From: Acidobacteriota bacterium
Lineage (GTDB): Bacteria > Acidobacteriota > UBA6911 > RPQK01 > JADFOI01
DNA: 49,286 nt
Reading direction: 5' to 3'
Assembly (NCBI GenBank): GCA_022562935.1
Contig: JADFOI010000007.1
Span: forward strand, 1-49,286
Shown: one piece after another, positions 3,676 through 49,279 of the stretch
Position numbering within the stretch: the first letter of the stretch is position 1
Layout of the letters: each line of letters opens with the position of its first letter
Program-made: the position numbers and the translations under genes
The notes under the pieces: generated by a model
What the model saw: only the letters and a program-made list of their open reading frames with translations
The model's database searches: none
Told to the model about the DNA's origin: nothing

Positions 3676-4125
3676 ATGAATGAGCCGCCAGAAATGAAGG
3701 TCGAGGAAGTGACGGAAGTCAGTACGGAACTGGTGGAAGCCTTTGCTCGTCTCACTCCGCAGCTGAGTCGTTCGTCGCCCCCTCCCGGAGAGCAGGAGCT
3801 GGAGCGGATTGTTCAATCGGATGCCACTCGATTGCTGGTTGCGAAGGTGGAGGGTGTCATCGTGGGTAGCCTGACTCTGGCTTTGTACTGGATTCCGACA
3901 GGTTTGCGTGCATGGATTGAGGATGTGGTGGTTGATGAGAGCGTTCGCGGGCAGGGAATTGGAGCAGCGCTGAATCAGGAAGCTTTGAAAGTGGCTCGAG
4001 ACCAAGGAGCCCGAACGGTGGATTTGACTTCTCGGCCCAGCCGGGAAGCAGCCAATCGTCTCTATCAGCGCTTGGGTTTCAAGCAACGAGAAACGAACGT
4101 CTACCGGTATTCGTTCGACCGCTAA
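3676..4125 (+). CDS. GNAT-family N-acetyltransferase
   Basis: This is a small GNAT acyltransferase using acetyl-CoA; the acceptor substrate cannot be told. From the ATG at 3676 it is 149 residues. The acetyl-CoA pyrophosphate-binding motif A reads VRGQGIGAAL, preceded by the strand IEDVVVDE, and the C-terminus ANRLYQRLGFKQRETNVYRY is the classical GNAT motif B. The frame is open back to 3622, but the later ATG is preferred because it follows a -10-like box and removes a tail unlike the family. It stands alone, divergent from gcvH and convergent with the lipoprotein gene downstream. Confidence 0.88.
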   Translation: MNEPPEMKVEEVTEVSTELVEAFARLTPQLSRSSPPPGEQELERIVQSDATRLLVAKVEGVIVGSLTLALYWIPTGLRAWIEDVVVDESVRGQGIGAALNQEALKVARDQGARTVDLTSRPSREAANRLYQRLGFKQRETNVYRYSFDR

Positions 4126-42301: not shown

Positions 42302-43657
<1,356 letters not shown>

Positions 43658-46905: not shown

Positions 46906-46990
46906 TGGATGAACTCCTATTTGTATTCGTTTGCGAAAAAGGGCTCAGTGAGCGATTACAACCATGTTGACCTCTGGAATGGTTTTTCAC

Positions 46991-47006
46991 GGTGACTGCA
47001 GTCACC
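46991..47006. promoter_or_regulatory. Perfect 16-bp palindrome upstream of the small membrane protein
   Basis: GGTGACTGCAGTCACC is fully self-complementary and lies 86 nt before the ATG at 46905. Such a symmetric site could be an operator for a dimeric regulator. Nothing in the sequence says which. Confidence 0.35.
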
Positions 47007-47189
47007 ATCCCATACCCGTCCTGTAAGTTACTCACTAAACGTTTACTGTGGGGCTCGGTTAGATGCGGGCAGACTCTGGATCGGTTCAGCCGCAAGCGGG
47101 TGTAGGGAGGAGTTTCGCACACGAATTCCCACCCTTGTAGTTGCTTCGGGATAGGGAACTTCGGTATAAGGCTAGCATCCCATTTGTGT

Positions 47190-47227
47190 GGGTCGTTAGC
47201 TCAGTCGGCAGAGCATCTGCCTTTTAA
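47190..47227 (+). pseudogene. 5' half of a tRNA-Lys(TTT) gene
   Basis: The segment has the acceptor strand GGGTCGT, TA, the D arm GCTCAGTCGGCAGAGC, A, the anticodon stem 5' strand TCTGC and the loop CTTTTAA with anticodon TTT, all typical of tRNA-Lys. The sequence then reads TTTGAACCCC instead of the required GCAGA, and no variable loop, T arm or 3' acceptor follows. The 3' half is not found nearby. A TATAAG lies about 24 nt upstream. It cannot make a functional tRNA as it stands. Confidence 0.75.
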
Positions 47228-47239
47228 TTTGAACCCCTG

Positions 47240-47376
47240 AGTTTTGACCTGCCCGTGGGAATGGCATTTCCCCGATCATTGTCTGAAGGGTACCCCCCCC
47301 TGGGTGCATGTACGCGCACTGACTGTACGCAGCCCTTTTCAATCTGTCAGGGGAGAATTGACTGAGAGTCAAAACT
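47240..47376. repeat. 137-bp segment with inverted terminal repeats, MITE-like
   Basis: AGTTTTGAC (47240-47248) and GTCAAAACT (47368-47376) are perfect inverted repeats, extendable to 11 bp with one mismatch. They bound 137 bp lying 12 nt after the tRNA-Lys half. No ORF is inside. It may be a small mobile-element remnant. The right arm also reads as part of a decayed ParE-like coding stretch, so the two readings compete. Confidence 0.35.
47275..47297 (+). repeat. 23-bp direct repeat, left copy
   Basis: ATCATTGTCTGAAGGGTACC plus CCC matches 48999-49021 at 21 of 23 positions in the same orientation. Read on the minus strand it gives G-T-L-Q-T-M-I, against G-T-L-E-A-M-M in the right copy. Confidence 0.7.
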
Positions 47377-47539
47377 TACCTTATGGCGACACCTGAGCTA
47401 CTTCCATTCGGGCAATCAATCCTCGTCGAGCGAAACCCGTAAGCGACTTTAAGGACACTCTTTGACAATGATTGACTGTAATCTGACAACTCGTCCCGTT
47501 TATTCCAGTAAAGTGATTCCCAACAAAGAGGGTGCTTCT

Positions 47540-47665
47540 ATGATCCAGAGACTCGCTTTTTCCGTCGCCCTGGTGGCACTGACTCCTGTGCTGTTGATCC
47601 TTGTCGTAATCTCTACCATCTACTTGCTTAGTGGTCTTCTTTCCATAAGTGGATTCCTGGGATAG
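47540..47665 (+). CDS. Possible 41-residue single-span membrane peptide
   Basis: From the ATG at 47540 the ORF encodes MIQRLAFSVALVALTP, then LLILVVISTIYLLSGLL and a short Gly/Ser tail: almost entirely hydrophobic. GAGGGTG lies about 7 nt upstream. The frame is open back to 47462. It resembles small membrane proteins of no known family. The ORF is short and could be chance. Confidence 0.35.
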   Translation: MIQRLAFSVALVALTPVLLILVVISTIYLLSGLLSISGFLG

Positions 47666-47727
47666 CTGGGATGCCTAGGCCAGCCAGTTCCCGGCCCTTA
47701 ATGAAGTCTTTGGGCTGATGGGGCGGC

Positions 47728-48735
47728 TCAACGACTATCTTCGGTCGCGCCGCTGACAGAGTCGGTCTTCACGGAAGTAAACTCCTGCCTGGCCATGACG
47801 AGTCCGGCCGAGTCGCGCGCCTCTGCCACCCACCGTCCCGCGGAGCCCGAGTGCAGGGTCCTACGGCTTTGGGTTCGCCAGTGAGGACCTCCAAGGATCA
47901 GCTCGACTGAACCTATCTCTCGGTTTTCGTGGAGCCAAATGTGCCAGATGGGTTCTCCCGCTTCTCCGCCAAGCACCCGCGTCCAAAACCAAACCTGGGT
48001 GCCTTCTTCGAAGTACTCGGCCTGGTTCTCGAGTTGATGATGGACGATGCGTGTTCCCACACCGAAATCCGTGATCGATAGTCTCCTCTCACCCTCGACC
48101 GCGGTCATGGTCTCGCCCTGCGCTCGCTGGAGGAGTGCGCTCAACTCATGCACCGCTGGACCTGCCTCCGGTTGACGAGCTTCGCCTCGATCTTCGGAGG
48201 GCTCCAGCTCGAAGGCAGGGGCCGGGATCTTCGTACTAATCGTGGCTTCCAGCGGGCCGCCCCGGAAGTAGGCCCACCCCGCGATCCCCACGAGAATCAC
48301 GGCGAAGGGAACCAGAAGCCAGGTTCTCCGCCACGATCTGAGGTGCATTCCCGTCGACCCGTCCGCGACCTCCGGATGGGACGGGACCAGCGACTGTAAC
48401 ACCTCCGAGGTGTGCTCCGAGGCCTCCGGCTCCTGGGTTTGCTGGGCAAGCGCATAGGCCTTGAGCAAGGGCTCGGGATCCAGACCGATGAACCGCGCGT
48501 AGGCCCGGATGTAGCCTTTGTTGTACAGACCTCCAGGGAGATTCGCGAAATCATTGTCCTCGAGCAACTTGAAGCAATTCTGGGGGATTTTTGTCGACTC
48601 GGACATCTCTTGGAGTGTGATGTTGCGGCTTTCACGTTCCCGCCTGAGTCTCTCACCAACGGTGGACACCGACACACTCTCGTCCCCCCTTACCCTCTCG
48701 CGGCGGTCATCTCTAAGATTCCTCTCACCCATCAT
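47728..48735 (-). CDS. RodZ-like HTH membrane protein with a DUF2914 C-terminus
   Basis: This 335-residue protein has a RodZ/HTH_25-type helix-turn-helix at about 26-95 (VGERLRRERESRNITLQEMS, NKGYIRAYARFIGLDPEPLL), a single membrane helix at about 138-157 (TWLLVPFAVILVGIAGWAYF) and a periplasmic C-terminus. Residues about 215-325 resemble DUF2914: QVWFWTRVLGG, IWHIWLHENREIG, GGPHWRTQSRRTLHSGSAGRW. The N-terminus suggests a cytoskeletal or DNA-binding anchor, but the usual RodZ C-terminal domain is absent. It looks more GC-rich than the neighbouring sequence. A symmetric TTGTGA-N6-TCACAA site lies about 130 nt upstream. Confidence 0.8.
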   Translation of the reverse strand: MMGERNLRDDRRERVRGDESVSVSTVGERLRRERESRNITLQEMSESTKIPQNCFKLLEDNDFANLPGGLYNKGYIRAYARFIGLDPEPLLKAYALAQQTQEPEASEHTSEVLQSLVPSHPEVADGSTGMHLRSWRRTWLLVPFAVILVGIAGWAYFRGGPLEATISTKIPAPAFELEPSEDRGEARQPEAGPAVHELSALLQRAQGETMTAVEGERRLSITDFGVGTRIVHHQLENQAEYFEEGTQVWFWTRVLGGEAGEPIWHIWLHENREIGSVELILGGPHWRTQSRRTLHSGSAGRWVAEARDSAGLVMARQEFTSVKTDSVSGATEDSR

Positions 48736-48994: not shown

Positions 48995-49279
48995 TCACAT
49001 CATTGCCTCAAGGGTACCCCCTCCTCTAAAAATCCTCACGACACTTATTGCCTGGGGATCAAAACTGAGAAAGAAACTAGTCGGCGATTGATCAGCCGCC
49101 GACCTGGCTTCGCGCAGGAAACGTTTTCGGGCCGCGGAGTCTTGCTGTAGCTCTTCAGGCAGGAACTTCAGGGCAACATTGCGGCCCAGGCGGGTGTCTT
49201 CTGCTTGATAGACCACACCCATCCCACCGCCGCCGAGTTTCTCTGTGATTTTGTAGTGGGAAATGGTTTGGCCAATCAT
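48995..49279 (-). pseudogene. Chimeric remnant: Ser/Thr kinase N-terminus joined to a ParE-like toxin C-terminus
   Basis: The first about 62 residues are a clear Hanks-type kinase start: [20 protein letters not shown] (glycine loop), [10 protein letters not shown] (ATP-binding Lys) and FLREARSAA. After that the kinase stops: no HRD or DFG motif follows. The last about 27 residues, [20 protein letters not shown] then TLEAMM, resemble the C-terminal strand and tail of ParE/RelE toxins. An inverted repeat, GTCGGCG (49080-49086) with CGCCGAC (49097-49103), sits at the joint. The product has neither a full kinase nor a full toxin, so it is best seen as fused debris. Confidence 0.7.
48999..49021 (+). 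repeat. 23-bp direct repeat, right copy
   Basis: This is the partner of 47275-47297, with two mismatches and the same orientation. It covers the last codons of the ParE-like remnant on the minus strand. The two copies are 1,724 nt apart and enclose the small membrane ORF and the RodZ/DUF2914 gene. Confidence 0.7.

Follow-up and report, generated by a model that had tools for sequence, protein, structure and literature searches.

A displaced tRNA-Lys(TTT) 5' half as the probable integration scar of a tyrosine-integrase element in an Acidobacteriota genome

The DNA analysed here, 49,286 nt from an Acidobacteriota bacterium and hereafter called the window, makes up the entire contig C180 in draft genome G000 (3.44 Mb, 188 contigs, 89% complete). 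Positions 47190-47227 on the plus strand are an exact copy of the first 38 nt of tRNA-Lys(TTT), ending on the final base of the 7-nt anticodon loop (47221-47227), and from 47228 onward the tRNA homology is gone. This confirms the first-pass annotation, which had described a normal tRNA-Lys(TTT) for 38 nt followed by a break. No complete tRNA was detected in the window by ARAGORN or by Rfam at the gathering threshold. The 5' half itself carries a terminator-like hairpin with a T tail, which was set aside as evidence, one such site having been found against 0.8 expected.

Upstream of the half, on the plus strand, is purA (42335-43657), which encodes adenylosuccinate synthetase (Pfam Adenylsucc_synt). 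In four relatives (G005, G025, G026 and G027) purA likewise stands upstream of tRNA-Lys(TTT) on the same strand, and because of this shared order we take the window half to mark the old site of the gene, from which the intact copy has been displaced. The interval 46990-47189 (plus strand), the upstream region of the original tRNA-Lys gene and now in front of an orphan half, presumably holds the promoter of that gene; promoter scans gave nothing useful. In the same-genus genomes G001 and G002 (the latter 96% complete), the tRNA-Lys(TTT) 5' half was not found with up to 3 mismatches, which may reflect a diverged gene, a gap or another disruption.

Downstream, the sequence of 47245-47673 is present at other places in the genome or genus and cannot be recognised as element DNA. 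Segments 47427-47522 and 47524-47673 recur on contig C151 of the same genome (91% and 97%), and 47301-47383 recurs in the sister genome G001 (87%). On the minus strand there follow a gene with an intact frame for a 335-aa protein with HTH_25 and DUF2914 domain matches (47728-48735) and, near the contig end, an N-terminal fragment of a Ser/Thr-kinase-like protein (48995-49279) that is repeated in the genome. The kinase-fragment copies and the three recurring segments bear out the earlier remark that repeats lie downstream. The HTH_25/DUF2914 protein gave weak matches only, in 2 of 7 near relatives, and its gene was rejected as an element marker for this reason and because it has no PHROGs match. 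The gene is bracketed by a 27-nt direct repeat (89%; 47275-47301 and 48999-49025), and a stretch similar to this repeat occurs in G001 on contig C292.

A search of the 3.44-Mb genome with the 38-mer, allowing up to 3 mismatches, returned two matches: the window (no mismatch) and C158:9620 (one mismatch, in the D-loop). A reversed control pattern had no match in the same genome. When ARAGORN was run on all 36 Rfam-model tRNA places in the genome, it reported a single Lys(TTT), the C158 gene, besides one Lys(CTT). An intact gene and an isolated 3' half had both been proposed as things to look for; the former is present once, on this other contig, and the latter was not found in the genome, where the 3' half occurs only within the intact C158 gene. 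That a 5' fragment is left here, instead of the usual 3' fragment, is thus upheld and is the key point of the observation. Two features of Islander-class islands are present: the end fragment in the window is cut at a known sublocation, the anticodon loop, and an intact copy of the same tDNA stands elsewhere in the genome, at C158:9620.

On its 5' side, the C158 tRNA is preceded by the C-terminus of a tyrosine integrase (Phage_integrase). The last 156 residues are preserved, the N-terminus is lost, and the stop codon lies 21 nt from the tRNA. The upstream flank of this tRNA is unrelated to window 46990-47189. A second, complete tyrosine integrase (L072, G000:C158, 9710-10804, minus strand) abuts the 3' end of the tRNA, so both sides of this tRNA are used by mobile elements. 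The displaced 3' fragment expected for the second integrase was not found in the genome.

An equivalent of the window junction was found in G006, an independent genome of the same family (65% complete). It contains the same 5' half, and of the 17 nt behind that half 15 are identical to window 47228-47244 (score 13, with 10 for the best of 300 shuffles). The G006 left flank matches that of C158 along 23 nt (score 17, with 12 as the highest in 300 shuffles), and the window left flank matches neither G006 nor C158 (scores 6 and 5, close to the shuffle means). Since its left flank resembles that of C158 and its right flank that of the window, the G006 site looks like an attP, with C158 resembling an attR and the window an attL. 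A decayed integrase C-terminus stands in front of the G006 half; it resembles int2, the other C158 integrase, and not int1.

Full-length relatives of the integrase were sought in 38 genomes of the class (E <= 1e-40), which gave 14 loci in 9 genomes. At 7 of the 14, the 3' end of the integrase gene meets the 5' end of a tRNA (Lys-TTT twice, Arg-TCT, Arg-CCT, Arg-CCG, Met and Ala-CGC); at 4, the integrase is met by the 3' side of a tRNA (Glu-CTC three times, and Asn); at the remaining 3, ARAGORN recognised no adjoining tRNA. Adding C158 and a decayed case in G024 to the first 7 gives nine 5'-side loci, and for 6 of these nine a 5' fragment was found in the genome in addition to the integrase-abutted intact copy (G000 Lys, G026 Lys, G025 Arg-TCT, G026 Arg-CCT, G004 Ala-CGC and G030 Arg-CCG). 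No such fragment was found in their own genomes for G032 Lys, G024 Lys and G030 Met. Among 396 genomes drawn from the phylum, 8 carry such an integrase (E <= 1e-60), all in this class. Named genomes yielded 4 loci, 3 of them in Acidobacteria MAGs; two are apparently the G032 and G025 records.

5'-half junctions equivalent to that of the window occur in G004, G025, G026 (three) and G030, and the fragments in these genomes stop at the anticodon loop or at most 4 nt after it. Both ends lie on one contig in G025 (10,013 bp, or 10.0 kb) and in G004 (about 11.7 kb apart), and there the order is that of Islander-class islands, with the 5' fragment upstream, in the same orientation, and the island between. 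The window and C158 are different contigs, and the fragment-to-intact order is therefore seen only in G025 and G004. For G026, G027 provides an empty-site comparison: its upstream flank resembles that of the G026 fragment and its downstream flank that of the G026 intact copy. This comparison, together with the single contigs of G025 and G004, shows that the element supplied the tRNA 5' half in these three genomes, and we infer the same for G000.

Three further loci were noted in the course of this survey. L116 (G026:C85:6269) holds at its position 2270 an orphan tRNA-Arg(TCT) 5' half with the conserved hairpin behind it; the same pattern search listed no intact Arg(TCT) in G026. L099 (G032:C143) has an integrase relative that reads into a sequence resembling tRNA-Lys(CTT); no 5' half can be recognised in this sequence, which may be either a tRNA in decay or a displaced 3' fragment. 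In L113 (G025:C24), similar 22-nt stretches precede the displaced half (1432-1453) and the intact copy, which might mean that a previous element of this kind left its flank in front of the displaced half.

The sites share further structure. In all four testable pairs, the fragment is followed after 115-130 nt by a direct repeat whose other copy stands 77-82 nt ahead of the intact tRNA (scores 18.5-25.5, against at most 11.5 in 60 shuffles); these paired repeats would fit arm-type integrase sites. G006 has paired arm repeats at +116 and -83. Between the window and C158 the repeat is absent (score 8; shuffle mean 8.1), and the C158 integrase end does have it. Behind the half, G025, G026 (two), G006 and G030 all have a hairpin with a T tail, equalled at each of these sites by 0-2 of 40 shuffles; the G004 hairpin is weak, with 13 of 40 shuffles equalling it. 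A terminator-like hairpin of this kind is absent from the P' region of the window and present at 5 of 6 other sites examined. Of 8 loci, 5 have the integrase stop codon within the tRNA and 3 have it 2-21 nt short of the tRNA, leaving a gap of at most 21 nt in all 8. Because the stop codon overlaps or nearly meets the tRNA, a separate tRNA promoter would have to sit inside the integrase gene, or else the tRNA would be transcribed from the integrase. In G004, G025 and G026, the integrase frame adjoining the rebuilt tRNA is open.

We consider it very probable that 47190-47244 is an attL, left when an element with a tyrosine integrase inserted into the only tRNA-Lys(TTT) gene, behind purA, and brought its own 5' half. 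Crossover would take place in the 7-bp anticodon loop (47221-47227, the putative overlap region), with the flanking stem serving as a natural inverted repeat, and the element attP would lie at the 3' end of the integrase gene and contain a copy of the tRNA 5' half and loop. Integration would push aside the chromosomal 5' half, which would stay at 47190-47227 as the left side of attL, joined now to 17 nt adjoining the core, a presumptive remnant of the element P' arm (47228-47244). At the far end, the 5' half of the element and the chromosomal 3' half would form a new intact gene, C158:9620, behind the integrase C-terminus. Of this model, the half and the intact gene, the junction in G006 and the recurrence of the architecture in relatives are directly seen; the window and C158 would then be the two ends of one insertion, and tRNA-Lys(TTT) would now be transcribed from the element side. 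The element in G000 decayed after insertion and is now a relic: the integrase N-terminus is lost and the P' arm, 17 nt without an arm repeat, gives way to repeated sequences.

Several observations count against a simple attL/attR pair: the window and C158 are on different contigs, they share no arm repeat, the window P' region has no terminator-like hairpin, the C158 integrase is merely a 156-aa C-terminal piece, and no 5' fragment was found for G032 Lys, G024 Lys or G030 Met. In addition, the G006 remnant is int2-like and not int1-like, and the presence of another integrase 3' of the C158 tRNA makes the locus harder to read. Tandem or successive insertions, in which the window scar derives from a G006-type element, the C158 integrase end from a later and different one, and the two contigs are the ends of an array, would account for the missing common arm repeats, for a window P' arm resembling that of a site with an int2-like remnant, and for the presence of one integrase on each side of the C158 tRNA. 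We regard this history as possible but rather doubtful: only two copies of the 5' half were found, whereas an array should have a third at its internal junction (the genome being 89% complete), and the near-core left flank of C158 matches that of G006.

The insertion of an integrase element also has to be set against origins that involve no element at all. A duplicated tRNA-Lys broken by ordinary deletion or illegitimate recombination, with no integrase, would suit the repeat-rich downstream DNA and its want of clear element genes, but it leaves unexplained the exact loop boundary, the 17 nt common to G006 and the recurrence of the pattern beside integrases in relatives, and we judge it improbable. 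The first-pass annotation had offered either a rearrangement point or possibly an assembly join. The rearrangement stands, and is best read as site-specific; the sharing of the half and of 15 of the 17 bases beyond it with the independent genome G006 speaks strongly against the assembly join. A misassembly of the 5' half to unrelated DNA, although conceivable in a fragmented draft of 188 contigs (89% complete) with repeats starting within about 80 nt of the half, would in addition have to have cut exactly at the loop boundary, as other fragments are cut at it or at most 4 nt off, and is very unlikely. Still less credible is an intron-interrupted tRNA, or a split tRNA gene joined in trans. The break does fall within the anticodon loop, a usual place for tRNA introns, but the genome has an intact gene, no 3' half was found in the window or elsewhere outside that gene, and no Rfam family reached the gathering score; this explanation was rejected for the lack of a separate 3' half and of an Rfam family.

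Not all relatives of the integrase use the 5' half. One relative, found in G034 with 49% identity to the query, adjoins tRNA-Glu(CTC) at its 3' side, and about 15.9 kb from the intact tRNA lies a 3' fragment that starts at the anticodon loop; the same loop seems to be used in the opposite direction. In a 17-row integrase tree, which is small and has long branches, at least 3 changes between tRNA sides are needed, and at least 2 are forced by the starred branches. The chances seem to us about even that related integrases use the palindromic anticodon stem-loop either way, mostly with the 5' half (Lys, Arg, Ala, Met) and otherwise with the 3' half of tRNA-Glu, with changes of mode on the tree, and that in the 5' mode the element captures the transcription of a host tRNA, here the sole tRNA-Lys(TTT) found, by making it the tail of the integrase gene, and the host may in this way become dependent on element DNA.

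The gene content of two elements in relatives was examined. Besides the integrase, the G025 element encodes a major head protein (PHROG 1005, E 1.8e-99), a terminase-small-subunit-like protein and a DnaD-like helicase loader. The G004 element encodes a D5-type primase and gives a terminase-large match that is weak and narrowly misses the Pfam cut-off (E 8.4e-5). From these matches, both look like phage satellites or reduced prophages. Phage records gave 660 integrase matches, and because all are under 60% identity, the integrase group is without a close phage relative among the records searched. Three exact-pattern scans of viral contigs returned no match to a free viral attP. The viral contigs contain 68 distant relatives of the integrase, and only 2 of these have a tRNA no more than 600 nt from where the match ends, one for each side. 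In the IMG/VR contig L157 (~3843-3983), a distant integrase (27% identity) runs into tRNA-Thr(GGT) at its 5' end and may be a viral example of 5'-side use.

The window case belongs to a known but uncommon kind of tRNA-using island. In the Islander survey (PMC4383910), 159 islands have a 5' tDNA fragment and 3760 a 3' fragment (159 of 3919), and 2083 sites are anticodon-centred. Like the 5'-fragment islands, the present case combines an intact tDNA, a displaced 5' fragment, a tyrosine integrase and an anticodon-centred site. It differs in that a related integrase group is found on several tRNAs within one bacterial class, and in that the integrase frame ends in or just before the tRNA, the window case being decayed. 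A further parallel is archaeal. According to a review of archaeal tyrosine recombinases (PMC8371274), pTN3-like integrases have as attB the tRNA 5' half including the anticodon, the integrase promoter drives expression of the rebuilt tRNA, and such use is seldom met in bacteria, the bacterial 5' cases of Williams 2002 being cited there. For pTN3 itself, PMC5495485 describes a rebuilt tRNA-Leu cut off from its original promoter and a disrupted integrase gene. The form of the attB and the separation of the rebuilt tRNA from its original promoter are common to both systems; pTN3, however, is archaeal and its integrase is disrupted, whereas the frames beside the rebuilt tRNAs are whole in most of the relatives studied here, because the attP lies at the 3' end of the gene. 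With classical anticodon-loop integrations our elements share the 7-bp loop as overlap, and the G034 tRNA-Glu(CTC) relative (about 49%) behaves in just this way; those integrations restore the 3' half, whereas here, in mirror image, it is the 5' half that the element brings. A group of bacterial integrases that takes the 5' half of several tRNAs, and works in the mirror mode on others, is possibly new; a partial literature search found no published report of one.

An odd half-gene thus becomes a readable scar, with a rule attached: 5' tRNA halves cut at the anticodon loop mark the ends of elements. Islands of the 5'-fragment type are missed by tools that seek only 3' tRNA fragments. If the capture of transcription is true, an essential host tRNA is now under the control of a mobile element, and the interleaving of 5'-restoring and 3'-restoring relatives makes the direction of tRNA use a testable evolutionary question.
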